Shown here in pieces: positions 27,114 to 37,136 of a stretch of 64,000 bases of DNA. Under the pieces are notes generated by a model. The model ran no database searches and was not told where the DNA came from. It was given only the letters and a program-made list of their open reading frames with translations. The stretch spans positions 1-64,000 of the forward strand of contig JAKRSD010000012.1 of NCBI GenBank assembly GCA_022402535.1. Direction: 5' to 3'. The translations under genes were made by a program, and so were the position numbers. Position 1 is the first letter of the stretch; the number at the start of each line of letters is the position of its first letter. The DNA is from Flavobacteriales bacterium. GTDB taxonomy: Bacteria > Bacteroidota > Bacteroidia > CAIKAF01.

Positions 27114-30100
27114 CTACATATTTCGTCTGTACTGCCCTCCTACTTCAAACAGGGCTTTGGTTATCTGGCCAAGTGTGCAGTATTTTACGGCAGTCATCAG
27201 TTCATCAAACAGGTTTTCATTTTTTACCGCAGCCTGCTGTAATTTCATCAGGTGTTCCTGACTTTTATCGGCAAAAGCCGTTTGCAGGTTTTTAACCGTC
27301 TGAATCTGATTTTGCTTTTCTTCTTCGGTGGCACGGATTACTTCCGCAGGAATAATGGTGGGCGAACCCTTGGAACTCAGAAAGGTATTTACTCCGATAA
27401 TGGGATATTCTCCGGTATGCTTGAGCATTTCATAATGCAGACTTTCTTCCTGAATTCGGCTACGCTGATACATGGTTTCCATGGCACCCAGCACTCCTCC
27501 CCTTTCCGTAATCCGGTCAAACTCGGCATACACGGCTTCTTCCACCAGTTCGGTCAGTTCTTCGATAATAAAAGCACCCTGAAGCGGATTTTCGTTTTTT
27601 GCTAATCCTAATTCTTTATTGATAATCAACTGAATCGCCATGGCTCTGCGAACCGATTCTTCGGTTGGCGTGGTTATGGCTTCGTCATAAGCATTGGTAT
27701 GCAGCGAATTACAATTATCATAAATGGCATACAATGCCTGCAATGTGGTACGGATGTCATTAAAATCAATTTCCTGTGCATGGAGCGAACGTCCGGAAGT
27801 CTGAATATGATATTTCAACATCTGTGAACGTGAATCGGCACCGTATTTATCTCTGAGGGCTTTGGCCCAAATTCTTCGGGCTACTCTTCCGATTACAGAA
27901 TATTCAGGATCAACACCATTACTGAAAAAGAAAGAAAGATTCGGACCAAAGTCATTGATATCCATTCCGCGGCTCAGGTAATATTCCACATACGTGAAAC
28001 CGTTAGCCAGTGTAAACGCGAGTTGGGTTACCGGATTGGCCCCCGCTTCGGCAATGTGATATCCGCTTATGGAAACGGAATAAAAATTCCGCACTTTGTT
28101 TTTGATGAAATATTCCTGTACATCGCCCATTAACCGTAAGGCAAACTCTGTACTGAAAATGCAGGTATTCTGCGCCTGATCTTCTTTGAGAATATCTGCC
28201 TGAACCGTTCCCCGCACCGCCGAAAGCGTTTCTGCTTTGATTTTCGCATATACATCTGCAGGAAGTACCTGATCTCCAGTTACACCCAGCAACATAAGCC
28301 CGAGACCGTCGTTACCTTCAGGAATGGGGGCATTATAAACTGGACGCGGTACTCCCAATTTTTGATAAATAGCCTCTATTTTCGCATTGACTTCCGCTTC
28401 CAGCCCATTGGCTTTGATGTATATTTCGCATTGCTGGTCAATGGCCGCATTCATGAAAAAACCAAGCAACATGGGTGCAGGACCGTTAATGGTCATACTC
28501 ACCGATGTTTTGGGATCGGCCAGATTAAAGCCCGAATACAGCCGTTTGGCATCATCCAGACAACAGATACTTACTCCCGAATTTCCGATTTTACCATATA
28601 TGTCCGGTCTTACATCGGGGTCATTTCCGTATAGTGTAACCGAGTCAAACGCTGTGGATAAACGCTTGGCAGGCATACCCAACGAAACATAGTGAAAACG
28701 TTTGTTGGTGCGCTCAGGACCGCCTTCACCGGCAAACATCCGCGTTGGATCCTCGCCTTCGCGTTTGAAGGGATAAATACCCGCTGCATAAGGAAATTCT
28801 CCAGGCACATTTTCAGTCAGCGACCAGTACAATTGTTCGCCCCAATTTTTGAATTTAGGAAGCGAAACCTTGGGAATCTCAAGATGAGAAAGAGATTCGG
28901 TATGGGTTTTTATTTTGATTTCCTTGTCGCGGACTTTAAACGTGTAAAATTCACCGGTGTAGTTCGCTTTTTTGGCTTCCCATTGCTGAATGATTTCCCA
29001 ATTTTTAGGATCTAAATCCAATTTTATTCTGTCAAACTCCGCCAATAACACTTTTACGATTTCGCTATTGGTCGTATTTTCCCGGGCTTTTTGTAAGGTT
29101 TTTTCCCACTCTTCCTTTGATGTATTTAATCTAACCCCGGTAATAGATTCTATGGTTTTGGCGATTCCAAATAGTTTTTCGGCCACTTCGGCCTGTTTTA
29201 CTGCACTTTGGTTGTACTTGCGGTTGTTTTCGGTAATCTCAGAAAGATAACGCGTTCTTCCGGGGGGAATGATGAATACTTTTTCAGAAATTTCGGCGGT
29301 AAATGAAAAGTCGGAGCGGAATTCTGTTTTCCCTGTTTTTTCAACCAGTTTGTCCATTACCGCTCTGTACAACCGGTTGGTTCCCGGATCATTAAACTGG
29401 CTGGCAATGGTTCCAATCACGGGGAGAGAATCATCATCGGCTTCCCAAAGGTTATGGTTCCGTTTGTATTGTTTTTTTACATCGCGGATGGCATCTAACG
29501 CTCCCCGTTTATCGAATTTGTTAATCGCCACAATGTCTGCAAAATCAAGCATATCGATTTTTTCGAGCTGTGTGGCTGCCCCAAATTCGGGAGTCATGAT
29601 GTATAAACTGGCATCGCTATGGTCCAAAATTTCGGTGTCAGACTGCCCTATCCCTGATGTTTCCAAAATAATCAGATCAAAATGGGCTGCTTTTAAAATA
29701 TTGACGGCGTCTCCCACATATTTGCTGAGTGCCAGATTGCTTTGGCGGGTAGCCAACGAACGCATATAGACTCTGGGATTCCGAATGGCGTTCATACGGA
29801 TTCTGTCGCCCAGTAAAGCTCCTCCTGTTTTACGTTTGGATGGATCTACCGAAATAATTCCCAGGGTTTTATCTTTAAAATCAATCAAAAAACGTCGAAC
29901 CAGTTCATCCACCATACTGGATTTCCCGGCGCCTCCGGTTCCTGTAATTCCCAAAACCGGTACACCTGAATGTTCAGCGGCCGATTTAATCTGATCTAGA
30001 ATCGATTTGCTTTCCTCAGGAAAATTTTCAGCGGCTGAAATCAGACGGGCAATTACTTTGTGATTTGAAGGAGATAAGTGTTCGGTATCTCCTTCTATTT

Positions 30101-30548
30101 TATCTCCGATGGCATAATCGGCCTGCATCAGCAGGTCATTAATCATACCCTGTAAACCCATCGCTCTTCCATCGTCGGGATGATAAATTCGGGTAATACC
30201 GTATGCATGCAGTTCGTTGATTTCTTCGGGTAGTATGGTTCCCCCACCTCCTCCGAATATTTTTATCTGCGAAGCGCCTTTTTCTTTCAGCAGATCGTAC
30301 ATATATTTGAAATACTCCACATGTCCGCCCTGATAACTCGTCATAGCTATGGCATGTGCGTCTTCCTGAATGGCCGTGTTCACCACTTCTTCCACACTTC
30401 TGTCATGGCCTAAGTGTATCACTTCGGCTCCTGTAGATTGAATAATACGGCGCATGATGTTAATGGCCGCATCATGTCCGTCGAAAAGGCTTGCCGCCGT
30501 AACAATTCTGATCTTGTTTTTGGGGATATATGGTGTCGCGTTCTGCAT
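27114..30548 (-). CDS. icmF: fused isobutyryl-CoA mutase IcmF
   Basis: A 1144-residue adenosylcobalamin enzyme with the IcmF domain order. The B12-binding domain (about 1-140) has DGHD, His25 being the expected cobalt ligand. A MeaB-type G-protein chaperone domain follows, with Walker [10 protein letters not shown] (Lys209) and NKFD (343-346), then the TIM-barrel mutase domain (about 560-1144). The substrate-pocket residues are Phe605 in RMFAGEG and Gln793 in AQNTCIF; methylmalonyl-CoA mutases have Tyr and Arg there. This supports interconversion of isobutyryl-CoA and n-butyryl-CoA, linking valine and butyrate metabolism. Family members with relaxed specificity (isovaleryl/pivalyl-CoA) remain possible. 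A -7 box lies upstream. Confidence 0.95.
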
Positions 30549-30565
30549 ATCTGAATTTTAACGGG

Positions 30566-30573
30566 CAAATATA
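30566..30573 (-). promoter_or_regulatory. -7 promoter element for icmF
   Basis: On the reverse strand this reads TATATTTG, a full match, 17 bases before the icmF ATG at 30548. The divergent promoter of the caspase-like gene begins about 60 bases away. Confidence 0.55.
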
Positions 30574-30629
30574 GCCAAATAGGCATTGTGAGCGTATTGC
30601 TGAGATAGGATTATAAATCATGTGTAGTA

Positions 30630-30660
30630 TTGTTGCCTCCTAAATATATGTTTACATTAG
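30630..30660 (+). promoter_or_regulatory. probable promoter of the three-protease run
   Basis: TTG (30630-30632) is followed after 20 bases by TACATTAG (30653-30660), one mismatch from TAnnTTTG. The ATG of the caspase-like gene lies 17 bases beyond. No terminator or other -7 box is seen before the second and third genes, so this may drive all three. Confidence 0.45.
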
Positions 30661-30677
30661 CTCCATCGTAATCCTTT

Positions 30678-33461
30678 ATGAAACAAAGTGTAATCCGGTT
30701 GTTTTCTGTTTTTTTTCTATTTATTGTGATAGCATTGCAGATTCGTGCGCAGGAGAGCGGAACGAGTTCGGTATATGGCATCATAGTGGGTGTTTCCAAA
30801 TACTCCGATCCATCCTTTAAGCCCTTAAATTATGCGGATGACGATGCATTGTGGTTTTATAGTTTTTTAAAAAGCCAGATTGTTAAACCGGCAGACCACA
30901 GTAAAATCAAATTATTCAGAAACGATTCTGCCCGGGCTGATTTGATTTGGGCCGAAATATTCAAAATCCGTAAAAAAGCCAATCCGGGAGATACTGTGTA
31001 TTTCTATTTTTCTGGTCATGGTGATGCCGGCAATCCGGAAAATATCATGCTGATATCGCACAACGCCATTAATGGTTTATTGCAGGCCGGTGGATGTATT
31101 CCGATGAGAGACCTTAAAGATGAATTTAAAATCCTGAATGCGAAAAAAGTAAAAGTAATCCTGATAACAGATGCATGCCGGGCCAATGAAGAAGCCGATG
31201 AATTGAATAATCTTATATTCACAAATAAAATAGCCAATCAATCCTCGGGTGAGTTTCAGTTTATCTCATGCTCAAGTGACGAAAAATCATACGAAGACGC
31301 CCGCTGGGGAGGCGGACACGGGGTTTTTACTTTTCATTTGATTGAAGGTTGGCTGGGCTTAGCGGATAAAGATGATGGCGAAGTATCTCTGGGTGAATTG
31401 GTTACTTATGTGAAAGAACAGGTAAAAAAAGACACTTACGATTCCAAAAAGAAAAAATCCCTGCAAAAACCACATCACTGCTGCTCCGATCAGGAAGATT
31501 GGATTGTGGGTAAAGTGGATGAAGAAATCAAAAAGAAAATTTTGATTCAAAAGGAAATGGGAAACAACATGTATGCGGCTTTAATGCCCAACATGCGCTC
31601 CAAAAATGCCAACCTGTCTTCTATTTCAGATACGAGTATTCTCCGTATGTATCAAAAATTTTATAATGCATTGGATGATAAACGCTTTTTGTATCCCGAC
31701 ACCAACTGTGCTTACACGTATTATCTGAGATTAAAAAACTCGGGTAAAGCGGAATCCATTCTGTCGGATGTGGAAATTGACCTGGTGGCCGGGATGGCCA
31801 ATGAGGCTCAGTCTGCGATTCAGGATTTTCTGACCAGTAAGGATACTTTGCATTCCACTTCCTTTTTCAGAAATGCGGCTGCTTTAATGAATGCTTCGCT
31901 GGGTTTGATGGATACAACCGATCAGTTGTACAAAAACATGAAAGCCAGAGCCTTGTTTTTAGAAGCTGGCTCACTTATGGATTCCCAGGATAAAATGGTG
32001 CAGGCATTTTACAAATTAGACAGTTCCTTGGTTTTTGAACCGGGAGCACCCTATGTGTTTTACATGCGTGCCAAGATTTATGAGGAATTTAAATACTATA
32101 AAGAAGCCGAAGAAAACTACCTGAAAGCTATTGAATTAGCCCCAAAGTGGGTGAACCCGCTCATTGGTCTAGCCTATTTTTATAATGATAACGGAAAATT
32201 AGATAAGAGCCTTCAATACTACGAGGAAGCCCTTAAAATTCAACCTACGCCACACACATTTAATCTTATAGCCTATGCCTATTATTCGGGCGGACAGTAT
32301 GAAAAAGCCATAGAAACCTATCAAAAGGCGCTGGACAAAGATCCCAATGACATTAATGCGCTTAACGGAATGGGCGCTGCCTTGGTAAAGGTAAATCAGC
32401 AGGATTCGGCCATTGTGTATTATCTGAAAGCGTTAAGCCTCGATTCCTTTTACTATTACACATATGCCCATATCGGTGCTTACTATTATGAAAATAGTCA
32501 ATACAATAGAGCCGAAGAATGTTATGACTTTGCTACACAATTGAATCCCTCTTACAAACATGGATTCTATATGCTCGGCGAAATCTGTGAGTTAAAAAAG
32601 GACCCCTACAATGCCGTAAAAAACTATCTGGCCTGTCTTCAAATAGACCGTTACGACTCTTACGTATATTACAAAATCGGAAGTCTTCTTGCCGCTGAGA
32701 AAATGTATCGTGAAGCGTTAAACTATTACATTACACCTACTTATTATGATGATTATTACAACCCCGTTTATGTGGGTGAAACTTATTTGGAATTGGGTGT
32801 TTTGGACTCGGCGTATATGTGGCTGAAATACAGCGATGATAACTTCCCCGATCAATATAGAACCCAAAGCCTGATTGGACTTTTTTGGATGAAAAGAGAA
32901 GACTATGCAAGTGCGCTACCGGCATTTCACAAATCTTCCGAGCTAAAGCCGGATTATGAATACAATTATTTTTCTCTGGCTATATCGCATTACTATCTCA
33001 CGAATATTGATTCTGCCATTTATTACTATGAAAAAACAATTACCCTGAACCCTTCATACCTTGAAGTGTATCCTTACCTGTGGTCAATTTATATGTATGA
33101 AAAGACGGATTATCCAAAGGCGTTGGGCGTTTTAAATAGAGGGCTAAAAGAGTTTCCTGAAAACGAAAATCTTTTATATTACAATGCATTCCACTATCTG
33201 CTGACCGGTGAATCGGAAAAGGCTTTAGTAGAAGCAGAAAAAACAATACGGTTAAATCCGGACAACGGCAGAAATTATTTTGGAAAAGCCATGATTCTGG
33301 CAAGTTTAAATAGAGAAAATGAATCAATTGAAATGCTTGAAAAAGCAATAAAAACTGGATTGAAAATAACCCATGAAGATTTAGAGGTAGAATATTTTAA
33401 TTCCATCCGATCAGATAAAAGATTCAAAAAGTTAGTCAACAATCTCTCAAAAAGTAAATAA
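30678..33461 (+). CDS. exported caspase-like (C14) protease with TPR array
   Basis: A 927-residue protein. A signal peptide ends near residue 24 (IRAQ). The caspase-fold domain (about 33-270) starts with YGIIVGVSKY and has the catalytic dyad His114 (FSGHGD) and Cys167 (TDACRAN), plus the late GVFTFHLIEGW segment. A helical linker and a long tetratricopeptide array (about 440-925) follow, with many units of the pattern YxxALxxxP, for instance near AIETYQKALDKDPN. Caspase-like enzymes in bacteria cleave after basic or acidic residues and are linked to regulated proteolysis or cell death. The signal peptide places this one in the envelope. First gene of a tight run with two other proteases; 19 bases to the next gene. 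Confidence 0.9.
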   Translation: MKQSVIRLFSVFFLFIVIALQIRAQESGTSSVYGIIVGVSKYSDPSFKPLNYADDDALWFYSFLKSQIVKPADHSKIKLFRNDSARADLIWAEIFKIRKKANPGDTVYFYFSGHGDAGNPENIMLISHNAINGLLQAGGCIPMRDLKDEFKILNAKKVKVILITDACRANEEADELNNLIFTNKIANQSSGEFQFISCSSDEKSYEDARWGGGHGVFTFHLIEGWLGLADKDDGEVSLGELVTYVKEQVKKDTYDSKKKKSLQKPHHCCSDQEDWIVGKVDEEIKKKILIQKEMGNNMYAALMPNMRSKNANLSSISDTSILRMYQKFYNALDDKRFLYPDTNCAYTYYLRLKNSGKAESILSDVEIDLVAGMANEAQSAIQDFLTSKDTLHSTSFFRNAAALMNASLGLMDTTDQLYKNMKARALFLEAGSLMDSQDKMVQAFYKLDSSLVFEPGAPYVFYMRAKIYEEFKYYKEAEENYLKAIELAPKWVNPLIGLAYFYNDNGKLDKSLQYYEEALKIQPTPHTFNLIAYAYYSGGQYEKAIETYQKALDKDPNDINALNGMGAALVKVNQQDSAIVYYLKALSLDSFYYYTYAHIGAYYYENSQYNRAEECYDFATQLNPSYKHGFYMLGEICELKKDPYNAVKNYLACLQIDRYDSYVYYKIGSLLAAEKMYREALNYYITPTYYDDYYNPVYVGETYLELGVLDSAYMWLKYSDDNFPDQYRTQSLIGLFWMKREDYASALPAFHKSSELKPDYEYNYFSLAISHYYLTNIDSAIYYYEKTITLNPSYLEVYPYLWSIYMYEKTDYPKALGVLNRGLKEFPENENLLYYNAFHYLLTGESEKALVEAEKTIRLNPDNGRNYFGKAMILASLNRENESIEMLEKAIKTGLKITHEDLEVEYFNSIRSDKRFKKLVNNLSKSK

Positions 33462-33480
33462 AAATTTAAACGTAATACCT

Positions 33481-35442
33481 ATGAAGAATTTAAAAAACTA
33501 TATGCTGACAATCGGATTGTTTGCATATTTTATTCCACTGAGTTATGCTCAGTTTGGAACGGGAGCCGTTATAGAACCCGGGAAATTAAGCAAACTGAAT
33601 TCGCCCGATAAAGGCGGGTTGGGGTTTTCTGCGCAGATTCCAGCCACTTTTTCGTTGAAATCATTTGCACCGTATGTAAAATCGCAAGGAATCTACCCTT
33701 CCTGTTCGGGCTGGGCTGTGGCGTATCAGGCATTGAGTATTCAATATGCCAGAGCCAACAACATTACCAATAAAAATCATATTACGGCGAATGCATTCTG
33801 TCCTTATTTTGTGTACAACAAAATCAAGCCCGAAATCAAAAACTGTTCAGGTGGAAAACCGGCCGATGAAATGATTTTTCTGATGATAGATGAAGGCGCC
33901 AAGAGATTTTATCTCCCTCTGATGGGATGTGGAACAAACGTTTCCAATGAATTTTCGGAATCGGCCAAAAATCACCGTATCAAAGATGGATACCGATTAT
34001 TTGACTGGCCTGCGGATATTAAAATCTATAACAATGATTTAGGTGATGCTTTTAAACGATACTTTGCCGCAAAACCACCCAAAGACCTCAAAATGGTTAA
34101 AGAATTTGTTGCCTCCGGATATCCGGTGATTTTTGCGGCAGCATTGCCAACATCCTTTTATTCTGTATCTGGCGATATATGGGAACCCACAGCTGCCGAA
34201 AAAGCAAATCCAGCTGCAGCCATTATGGATAATACAGGCGCACACAGACTACATGCCATGACTATTGTAGGATATGACGACGCAAAATACGGCGGCGCTT
34301 TTGAAGTTATGAATTCATGGTCAGAAAACTGGGGAAACAAAGGGTTTTTCTGGATACGGTATGAAGATTTTTCCACGTATGCATATAGCGCATTAGCCAT
34401 GGAACTTTATCCGGTAGATCCGCTTTCATTAACGAAAACCGGATGTGTTTGGGGAGATTGTAATAATGGATACGGATTTTTTAGAAGTGCCAATAAACAT
34501 ACTTACGAAGGATATTTTAAAAACGGGGTTTACAACGGCTATGGCATTTATACCTGGCCCACGGGAGCCGCTTATGCCGGTATGTGGAAAGAAGGAAAAC
34601 GGGAAGGTGAAGCCACACAATACTACCCTGACGGAGAATTTGGGCAATGTATTTACAGTGCTGATAAGGTGCTGAGCGGTTACACGCAATTTAAAACTGC
34701 CTCTGGCGATGAATACAAGGGAACCATTAAAAACGGGTTGATTCACGGCTGGGGTACTTACCAGTTTGTGAGTGGTGATAAATACACCGGTTTTATTGAC
34801 AACGGTAAATTTCAAGGACTTGGAAAATATATGTGGGCTAACGGTACCGTGTATATGGGCTATTGGGAAAACGGGAAACGAAACGGGAAAGGTATGCTGA
34901 TTACTCCCGATAAAAAAGCCATGGCTGGGGACTGGGTGAACGAAACCTTTATCTCGGGAAAATCTTTTGGGTTTGCTTCTGAAGCGGAAGCCCCTACTCC
35001 ATCACTTGAGTTAAAATCCAGTGTGTATCTCTCTGCAGATTGTATTTCGGGCAATTGCCTGAATGGAAACGGAAGCCGCAATATGGGCAATGGAACCAAA
35101 TATGAAGGCGATTTTACGGACGGTCTTGAAGATGGCCGTGGTATGCGCACATATACCGATGGAGTGTATGATGGTATGTGGAAACAGGGAAACAAAAATG
35201 GTATAGGAATACTCAAACTTAACAGCGGCACCAACATCATTGCCGAATTTAAAAAAGATAAAGTGGATGGTTATGCCTTTTTCTATGATAATGCGGGAAA
35301 AATGTTTGTGGATATTTTTAATAATGGCGCAAGAATTTCACGCCTAGCCATGTCAGATCCCACCGCATCTACAGGCACGGGAATACAAGCCATGCAAAAA
35401 ACATTTTTAGGACCGGATCTTACCGAAAAACCAAGCCGTTGA
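33481..35442 (+). CDS. exported papain-like (C1) protease with MORN repeats
   Basis: A 653-residue protein. The signal peptide ends near residue 23 (SYAQ). The papain-like domain (about 50-310) has Gln69, Cys75 in YPSCSGWAVAY, His258 in LHAMTIVGYDD and Asn278 in NSWSENWG, a complete C1 catalytic set in the CxGWA variant. From about residue 320 there are two MORN arrays with cores such as YEGYFKNG and YNGYG, each headed by a C-x4-C element (Cys322/327 and Cys521/526) followed by NGxG. MORN repeats bind membranes or proteins, mainly known in eukaryotes. Second gene of the protease run; 7 bases to the next gene. Substrate unknown. Confidence 0.88.
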   Translation: MKNLKNYMLTIGLFAYFIPLSYAQFGTGAVIEPGKLSKLNSPDKGGLGFSAQIPATFSLKSFAPYVKSQGIYPSCSGWAVAYQALSIQYARANNITNKNHITANAFCPYFVYNKIKPEIKNCSGGKPADEMIFLMIDEGAKRFYLPLMGCGTNVSNEFSESAKNHRIKDGYRLFDWPADIKIYNNDLGDAFKRYFAAKPPKDLKMVKEFVASGYPVIFAAALPTSFYSVSGDIWEPTAAEKANPAAAIMDNTGAHRLHAMTIVGYDDAKYGGAFEVMNSWSENWGNKGFFWIRYEDFSTYAYSALAMELYPVDPLSLTKTGCVWGDCNNGYGFFRSANKHTYEGYFKNGVYNGYGIYTWPTGAAYAGMWKEGKREGEATQYYPDGEFGQCIYSADKVLSGYTQFKTASGDEYKGTIKNGLIHGWGTYQFVSGDKYTGFIDNGKFQGLGKYMWANGTVYMGYWENGKRNGKGMLITPDKKAMAGDWVNETFISGKSFGFASEAEAPTPSLELKSSVYLSADCISGNCLNGNGSRNMGNGTKYEGDFTDGLEDGRGMRTYTDGVYDGMWKQGNKNGIGILKLNSGTNIIAEFKKDKVDGYAFFYDNAGKMFVDIFNNGARISRLAMSDPTASTGTGIQAMQKTFLGPDLTEKPSR

Positions 35443-35449
35443 TTTTTTC

Positions 35450-37078
35450 ATGAAATGGATTTTCGCCCTTTTATTAAACTTCTTGCTGATTTTTCATATC
35501 CACGCAGGAATCATTGAATGCAAGGATGTTTTCGACCGCCTTGTATTGGTTATGGGTCAGGGAAATATGCCCAAACCTCGCTTGGTGATTGAGAACAGTC
35601 CCAACTTGGTGGCCGTTACTTTTCCTACCGGCGAAATAAAAGTGGGAAATCGATTTATCGGTTTGTGTTCCCGTTTTCAAAAAGATTCAGTGAATGCACT
35701 GGCTCATGTATTATCGCATGAGCTGGTGCATTACTACAGGCGTCATGCATGGGCACACGGATTCGGAGCTGCCTATGCCGATACGGATTGGGGAAAAAAA
35801 ATAGCCAAAGAAGAATCGAACAAGGCGTTTATGGAACTATATGAGACCCAGGCCGATCAATTAGGCGTATTATATGCATTCAGTGCCGGTTACAACACAA
35901 TCCACGTAGCTCCATTTGTGTTGGATAGTATTTATACCTGGTTTCATGGCGGTAAAGATTCCATTCCGGGTTACCCGCCGCTTGCCCAGCGAAAACTAAC
36001 CGCAGAAAAATCGGCAAAACTCATTGCCAACTTAATTCCTGTGTTTGAAACGGGCAATCTACTCCAGTCGTTGTCTTATATTCATAAGGGCGAAACCCAA
36101 TCCTTTATGTTGGATTTCAGTGGATTCTGCTATGAACATATTCTGTCTTCCGATATTCATACACCCGAGATATTCAATAATTTAGCTGCGGTAAAAATTT
36201 TAAAATCAAATCTTTACAATACATCTATTACCGCTACACTTAAACTTCCGCTAATCCTGGATGGCAACTCATTGCTCTATGAAATTTCGGGTACGAGAGA
36301 CGGTAGCGATTATTCCGAAATGCTGAATATGTTATCCTCAGAAGCGTTTGAACATCTTGACCGCTGTCTGAAAATTGAACCGGCATATTGGCCGGCCCGC
36401 ATCAACAAATTGGTTCTGCTCTTAAAACTTGAAAAATTGGGAAGTTGCGAAGATGAAATCAGACAACCGATTAATCAGGAACTGATAAAAAGTCTGCCCC
36501 AGTTTAAAAATTACACCCGCGAAATTCAGGCTGTAATAGCATACCTGAAAAACGATAAAACGCTTGCCAAAAAACTATTTGCCGAAGTAGAAAAAAACGG
36601 GTCACTTACTGCTGCGGAAAACCTGCTGATGCTAGAGGGAAAATTTGATTTACGTAGTAAAAATCAAGAAGAGTGGGATGTAGATACTTCTGAAAAATGG
36701 ATGGGTAAATATGTCGGTTTTTCGCTTCGCGATTATGATGTGGACACGGAAAAAATGGCATTGCTCAATAACCAGAATGGGTATATTCTCTACAAAAATG
36801 AAGGTGATTACCTGATATACGAACTCAACCAAAAACTAGGCAGAGGACCTTTCCGAAAAGTCCGATTTGCCGTATCCCAAGAAGAATCATCTTACACTTC
36901 AAAAGGAATAAAACCCGGTTCCACTGCCAAATCCATCAAAACAGCCTATGGAGAACCGAAATGGGTTTCAGAAGGAACCCTACACTCCTATTGGTACTAT
37001 CCGGTTCATAAATTGGTGTTTATGTTAAACCAGCCTCAGAATAAAGTACATAGCTGGTACTATTATTCTGTTAAATAG
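35450..37078 (+). CDS. exported M48-like zinc metallopeptidase with BamE-like tail
   Basis: A 542-residue protein with a signal peptide (ending near IHAG, residue 20). The zinc-peptidase motif HELVH is at residues 90-94, and the third ligand is in ETQADQLG (Glu132), a gluzincin arrangement like M48. The middle of the protein is helical. The last 60 or so residues (GIKPGSTAKSIKTAYGEP, then WYYPVHKLVF) resemble the BamE/SmpA fold by pattern; this is an inference. There are no membrane helices apart from the signal, so it is periplasmic or exported. Third gene of the protease run. It may mature or degrade envelope proteins together with the two cysteine proteases. Confidence 0.8.
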   Translation: MKWIFALLLNFLLIFHIHAGIIECKDVFDRLVLVMGQGNMPKPRLVIENSPNLVAVTFPTGEIKVGNRFIGLCSRFQKDSVNALAHVLSHELVHYYRRHAWAHGFGAAYADTDWGKKIAKEESNKAFMELYETQADQLGVLYAFSAGYNTIHVAPFVLDSIYTWFHGGKDSIPGYPPLAQRKLTAEKSAKLIANLIPVFETGNLLQSLSYIHKGETQSFMLDFSGFCYEHILSSDIHTPEIFNNLAAVKILKSNLYNTSITATLKLPLILDGNSLLYEISGTRDGSDYSEMLNMLSSEAFEHLDRCLKIEPAYWPARINKLVLLLKLEKLGSCEDEIRQPINQELIKSLPQFKNYTREIQAVIAYLKNDKTLAKKLFAEVEKNGSLTAAENLLMLEGKFDLRSKNQEEWDVDTSEKWMGKYVGFSLRDYDVDTEKMALLNNQNGYILYKNEGDYLIYELNQKLGRGPFRKVRFAVSQEESSYTSKGIKPGSTAKSIKTAYGEPKWVSEGTLHSYWYYPVHKLVFMLNQPQNKVHSWYYYSVK

Positions 37079-37128
37079 CCGAAAAACATCAACCCTGTTC
37101 AGCTATTTACCATAACGGGGTAAATAGT

Positions 37129-37136
37129 TACTTTTG
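37129..37136 (+). promoter_or_regulatory. -7 promoter element for the lipid kinase gene
   Basis: TACTTTTG matches TAnnTTTG. It covers the first possible start codon (TTG at 37134) and ends 9 bases before the GTG at 37146, so it sets the translation start downstream. Confidence 0.6.

Follow-up and report, generated by a model that had tools for sequence, protein, structure and literature searches.

Organization of the locus

The locus lies on the forward strand of a 64,000-nucleotide stretch of DNA from a Flavobacteriales bacterium (GCA_022402535.1, contig JAKRSD010000012.1), the whole of which is referred to here as the window, and it comprises three consecutive open reading frames of 927, 653 and 542 amino acids. 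Gene 1 (30678..33461, + strand) encodes an exported caspase-like protease of family C14 that carries TPRs toward its C-terminus, as identified by Pfam, a profile match and the catalytic dyad; gene 2 (33481..35442, + strand) encodes a papain-like protease of family C1, likewise exported, whose C-terminal part is made up of MORN repeats, as identified by Pfam and profiles; and gene 3 (35450..37078, + strand) encodes an exported M48-like/TPR protein characterized through its AlphaFold2 model and plug motif. A gap of 19 bases (33462..33480) separates genes 1 and 2, and one of 7 bases (35443..35449) separates genes 2 and 3. In a preliminary description the locus had been presented as three exported proteases of different clans in one tight run, and the reading frames and their positions, both gaps, the catalytic residues and the N-termini are all as stated there.

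All three proteins begin with signal-peptide-like N-termini devoid of a lipobox cysteine, as assigned by a simple pattern check rather than a trained predictor. Each enzyme, judged from its sequence, combines catalytic residues, an export signal and a repeat scaffold of its own (TPR, MORN and TPR, respectively). None of the three proteins matched the type IX C-terminal sorting models, and type IX secretion was rejected on this ground. With export signals present and the type IX model unmatched, the periplasm is the simplest reading of where the proteins would reside, a placement predicted solely from the N-termini.

A promoter-like element had been ascribed to the first gene only, which our analysis does not confirm. 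Matches to sigma-70 promoters occur at chance level (21 found versus 22.8 expected), as do the results of a terminator scan, and the + strand contains no exact Bacteroidota -7 element (TAnnTTTG) from 30310 to 37128. The first such element after 30310, TACTTTTG (37129..37136, + strand; a pattern match only), precedes a lipid-kinase gene, and its position, for a pattern no commoner in the window than chance predicts, weakly suggests that the lipid-kinase gene is a separate unit and that the trio unit ends at 37078. The lipid kinase (37134) was considered as a fourth member and rejected, as it is set off by a 55-base gap, has its own -7-like element and does not stand beside the trio elsewhere.

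Two cysteine proteases, each joined to a repeat scaffold

In gene 1, the C14 domain (approximately 30780-31484, + strand; Pfam Peptidase_C14 at 2.6e-11) is followed by TPRs, also found by Pfam (approximately 31965-33440). The catalytic dyad is formed by His114 and Cys167, which lie in the motifs SGHGD and TDACR; the dyad is retained in all active gene 1 orthologues, and SGHG and DACR are conserved. A profile built from six C14 domains matched MALT1 (2.5e-7) and metacaspases (8e-5), and the p20 domain with a His/Cys dyad by which peptidase family C14 is recognized is present. Asp165 is positioned two residues N-terminal of Cys167, which is the metacaspase pattern, and the presence of this aspartate suggests that the enzyme would cleave after Arg or Lys.

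Gene 2 couples a C1 domain (approximately 33643-34416, + strand; Pfam Peptidase_C1 at 6.1e-7, supported by profiles) to MORN repeats (approximately 34438-35280; 1.9e-29). The active-site set is Gln69/Cys75/His258/Asn278, and these Gln, Cys, His and Asn residues, which characterize papain family C1, are invariant across 14 C1 relatives from the trio and related loci. A profile of the same 14 domains matched PDB 3ois (1.9e-21) and, less strongly, cathepsin K (1.7e-14). The structural model of the C1-MORN protein is weak (pLDDT 57 overall) and poor in the C1 half, and a structure search with it returned only MORN and other beta-repeat structures, the MORN half resembling those of MORN1; because of this weakness, it is the profiles that carry the C1 assignment. 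Pfam reported no I29-type propeptide in gene 2, where some 30 residues precede the C1 domain. Inhibitory propeptides of this type are present in cathepsins and not in all members of C1.

An M48-like enzyme with a tyrosine at the plug position

Gene 3 has no Pfam match up to E 0.01, and at a looser limit it matched M48 (PF01435) with an E of 0.012 and 15.9 bits against a Pfam cut-off of 20.3. Its relatives reached a best E of 2.9e-5 to the same model, one of them (L099) scoring 20.7 bits against the cut-off of 20.3. The zinc motif HELVH occupies residues 90-94, and the probable third ligand is E132 in ETQAD; the H, E, H, E and D are invariant in 25 gene 3 relatives, giving the HEXXH and downstream Glu of M48. 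An AlphaFold2 model based on 25 sequences (pLDDT 83, pTM 0.80) is divided into a catalytic domain (approximately 35519-36085, + strand), a TPR region (approximately 36032-36646) and a C-terminal beta domain (approximately 36692-37075). The best PDB match to this model in Foldseek is E. coli BepA (1e-5, probability 1.0). BepA is also the best match in VIA (Z 14.9 over 286 residues), with an rmsd of 17.5, and therefore the domain arrangement must differ, while the catalytic domain alone aligns to the M48 structure 3c37 with a Z of 12.9 over 156 residues and an rmsd of 4.4. The model, the fold search and the simple export pattern together assign gene 3 a BepA-type architecture, namely an exported M48 domain with TPRs.

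A structural study of BepA (PMC7950410) describes the active-site plug HPX4R, with its His serving as fourth zinc ligand, as conserved across all of PF01435. The plug of gene 3 reads YPPLAQR (residues 175-181) in place of HPX4R, and YPX4R is found in 24 of the 25 sequences of its family, with YVX4R in 1 of the 25. The sole canonical M48 protein that PF01435 finds in the window's genome keeps HPX4R, as HPDDGSR. Since the defining plug is lacking, we name the protein M48-like, and on these sequence features its family is a distinct M48-like subfamily. With Tyr175 as the plug residue, the usual inhibitory histidine plug has probably been lost from this enzyme. In astacins a tyrosine serves in a zinc-capping role; that the tyrosine of gene 3 might do the same is, by this analogy, only an idea.

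The ordered trio recurs in other genomes

Adjacency of the three genes in relatives had been named in the preliminary description as a first test of its proposal. The test was passed, as the ordered, same-strand trio of C14-TPR, C1-MORN and M48-like genes was found in four other metagenome-assembled genomes. Two of these, JANWKT01 (Flavobacteriales bacterium CRAIB_MAG100; G012) and JANWKQ01 (CRAIB_MAG97; G013), represent a different genus in the window's family, and two MAG contigs (L029 and L030) are the sole trio carriers outside that family. The trio proteins of the window are 28-53% identical to those of the other loci, and the flanks differ: the window has a fused mutase and the lipid kinase, G012 and G013 have genes resembling ceramidase and racemase, and L029 and L030 have others. 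A tblastn search of the four loci with the window's proteins found the trio alone in common, save for one short 34% match, and the identity matrices of the three genes group the loci alike. Because the order recurs at 28-53% identity with different flanks, the trio can be regarded as a real unit; by the evidence of gene order it is one conserved unit whose arrangement is kept across genera. The recurrence of both the set and its order in other bacteria makes it very probable that the three proteases cooperate at the cell envelope.

Individual loci also show local differences. In G013, C1-MORN is present in two tandem copies, and in G012 an extra short caspase-like gene, with VDAPS for TDACR and hence devoid of the Cys motif, lies directly before the active one.

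Association with caspase-fold genes beyond the trio

Of 395 genomes sampled across the class, 14 encode members of the M48-like family, with 15 genes in total. A C14 or CHAT gene lies within 7 kb of 13 of these 15 genes versus 0.56 expected (P 4e-19 under random placement, a calculation that ignores relatedness among genomes), with the 7 kb limit set post hoc once the loci had been seen and several of the assemblies fragmented. With the window's family left out, 10 of 12 M48-like genes are near C14 or CHAT versus 0.51 expected (P 7e-14), and at a 3 kb limit the count is 8 of 15 versus 0.29 expected (P 2e-11). As a control, the 41 canonical M48 genes encoded in those genomes were compared with the same C14 and CHAT positions, and a single one of them, G388:C18 with three C14 genes next to it, lies within 7 kb. 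By counts read by eye from tables for the control, the two groups differ with a Fisher P of 7e-10, which becomes 3e-4 when each genus contributes one case. The nearby C14 or CHAT genes are distributed over seven families (f1, f2, f3, f9, f41, f63 and f68), with f70 lacking one, and in G055 a further M48-like gene adjoins a WD40-C14 gene overlooked by the genome-level search. A sample of 395 genomes drawn from the whole phylum had M48-like genes in 3, one of them the genome of the window. The M48-like family is thus strongly tied to caspase-fold (C14/CHAT) genes well beyond the trio.

The composition of these neighborhoods varies. One locus has the order CHAT-TPR, M48-like, C1, with the papain-like gene beside the M48-like gene and CHAT in place of C14 (G264), and another has CHAT-TPR, C14-TPR, M48-like (L050); CHAT is followed by the M48-like gene in G268, C14 by the M48-like gene in G331 and G384, and C1 by four C14 genes, with no M48-like gene, in G156. 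Such variant loci indicate that the enzyme types are also found as pairs. For the papain-like family the linkage consists of few cases, namely single occurrences and few pairings.

Compact bacterial genomes also place unrelated genes close together, and the three proteases could in principle be chance neighbors that share no function. This reading is largely contradicted by the synteny, given an order retained across divergent proteins and different flanks, as well as by an enrichment above both the background and the canonical M48 control, and we regard it as highly improbable.

A candidate module for envelope proteins

A role in surveillance or processing of envelope proteins is favored by the presence of export signals, of repeat scaffolds and of a BepA-like enzyme. 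We judge it an evenly balanced proposition that the module directs scaffold-guided surveillance or processing of exported envelope proteins by proteases acting in parallel. Envelope proteins that are clients or are damaged would be bound by the TPR and MORN repeats and cut after Arg or Lys by the caspase-fold enzyme, and the papain-like and BepA-like enzymes would carry degradation or processing further, so that a single pool of clients would be handled by several proteases. From the sequences we infer that the trio proteins may share substrates or a pathway in the periplasm, a shared neighborhood being no proof of shared substrates.

The preliminary description had instead envisaged a proteolytic cascade in which one enzyme activates the next. 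In such a cascade the caspase-like protein would sense a signal through its TPRs and would cleave and so activate the papain-like enzyme, which in turn would activate the M48-like enzyme. A run of three proteases that keep a fixed order and carry scaffolding repeats would suit such a relay, and caspase-fold enzymes are able to activate other proteins by limited cleavage. Pairs of proteases in which one activates its partner are known in bacterial immunity (PMC12799240). However, Pfam and the domain starts reveal no recognizable prodomain in any of the three proteins, the catalytic domain beginning about 10 residues (C14), about 30 residues (C1) or almost immediately (M48-like) after the predicted signal peptide, and across lineages C14 is replaced by CHAT and the papain-like gene is often missing. 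As prodomains are unrecognizable and the partner set is variable, a fixed zymogen relay is disfavored; a cascade through prodomain removal was dropped as the leading idea, and we consider the cascade as a whole unlikely. Because Tyr175 probably leaves the M48-like enzyme without its histidine plug, parallel surveillance is also the likelier of the two.

Regulated lysis or cell death, in which the activated enzymes would degrade envelope proteins and thereby kill the cell, draws on the frequent ties of caspase-like enzymes to cell death (PMC3501461; PMC8195603). Yet the trio is exported, its unit contains neither a pore former nor another toxin partner, Pfam detects in its proteins no domain of the STAND/NACHT or death-like adaptor kinds, and PADLOC gave a generic caspase model alone, all of which leaves this outcome rather unlikely. 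A known anti-phage defense system was also considered and rejected, as PADLOC left the C1 domain and the M48-like protein unmatched and the proteins carry export signals; the defense role raised in the preliminary description is likewise unsupported, while the surface remodeling raised there is a possible role. Nutrient digestion would have secreted proteases degrade environmental protein, and a single unit of three exported peptidases of different specificity accords with this, but the type IX sorting model is unmatched, no transporter is encoded in the unit, and the BepA-like fold and protein-binding repeats better suit internal envelope clients. We hold nutrient digestion to be quite unlikely.

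Surveillance or processing by parallel proteases can be extended, more tentatively, to the variant loci. It is possible, if short of probable, that they reflect an undescribed Bacteroidota envelope system of interchangeable parts. Its sensor-protease would have a caspase fold (C14 or CHAT) joined to TPR or WD40, its papain-like protease would come with MORN or DUF4384, and its M48-like protease would have the tyrosine plug; jointly they would recognize exported proteins and either destroy or process them.

Comparison with known systems

The families are individually known, but neither the way in which they are combined and conserved here nor the tyrosine plug seems to have been described before; we found no description of the trio or of exported caspase operons in the open-access literature, with most subscription journals outside this coverage. 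There is a fair chance that the trio is a system of its own. In the caspase-centered EACC1 conflict systems (PMC8195603), a caspase domain and partner genes likewise occur in conserved neighborhoods. In contrast to the trio unit, those systems are built on adaptor domains, STAND NTPases or sigma factors, and gene 1 scored 56 bits with the EACC1-associated caspase model NF047832 against a cut-off of 140.

Gene 1 shares with bacterial metacaspases and orthocaspases (C14 with TPR or WD40) the His/Cys dyad, the Asp two residues before the Cys and the TPRs, whereas it differs in being exported and in belonging to a conserved unit with papain-like and M48-like proteases. In the available text of a 2012 survey (PMC3501461), 23 of 217 metacaspase operons have neighbors with proteolysis domains and 70 of 217 have no assigned function, and the trio set goes unmentioned there. 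Bacterial caspase homologues are common and their partners and substrates mostly unknown, and an export-tagged neighborhood with BepA-like and papain-like enzymes offers a defined, testable pathway; an envelope module would turn the focus toward the envelope and away from cytoplasmic cell death.

A 2023 survey of papain origins (PMC10380794) makes no mention of MORN. Gene 2 resembles papain family C1, as represented by 3ois and cathepsin K, in its Gln-Cys-His-Asn set and domain-wide profile match, and differs in its fusion to MORN repeats and in having no reported I29-type propeptide.

BepA (YfgC), an M48-TPR protease of the E. coli periplasm, takes part in quality control of LptD/BAM. Gene 3, as modeled, appears to share its plan of a metallopeptidase domain followed by TPRs in an exported protein. 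It departs from BepA in its extra C-terminal beta domain, in sharing its gene unit with a pair of cysteine proteases, and in its YPX4R rather than HPX4R plug, a tyrosine variant that could serve as a natural experiment on how enzymes of the M48 type are kept inactive.

Variant arrangements and neighbouring genes

Immediately before the gene for the active C14-TPR protein in G012, a trio-bearing MAG, lies a gene (L024:2577-3455, equivalent to L031:3254-4132) encoding a caspase-like protein of 292 aa that is devoid of TPRs. Because VDAPS replaces the catalytic Cys motif TDACR, its sequence indicates that this protein is probably a pseudo-protease. The trio-bearing MAG G013 carries a tandem duplication of C1-MORN (L025:5250-7199 and L025:7268-9265), with the catalytic residues kept in both copies.

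Between the M48-like and C14 genes of G333 and G386, genomes of two species from one genus, sits a gene for an exported protein of 585-587 aa (L101:6637-8391 and L103:10798-12558, respectively), the C-terminus of which resembles that of an outer-membrane beta-barrel; the copy tested, from L101, gave no Pfam match. Three C14 genes adjoin a canonical M48 gene in genome G388 (G388:C18:171182-174568), the only such case among the 41 canonical M48 genes checked. In genome G156, four genes encoding caspase-like domains come after a papain-like gene that carries a DUF4384 domain, all five in the same orientation (L109:2-9851).

Within the window, the minus-strand gene at 27114-30548 encodes an 1144-aa fusion of B12-binding, MeaB and methylmalonyl-CoA mutase domains, the domain arrangement of the fused acyl-CoA mutases, IcmF among them.
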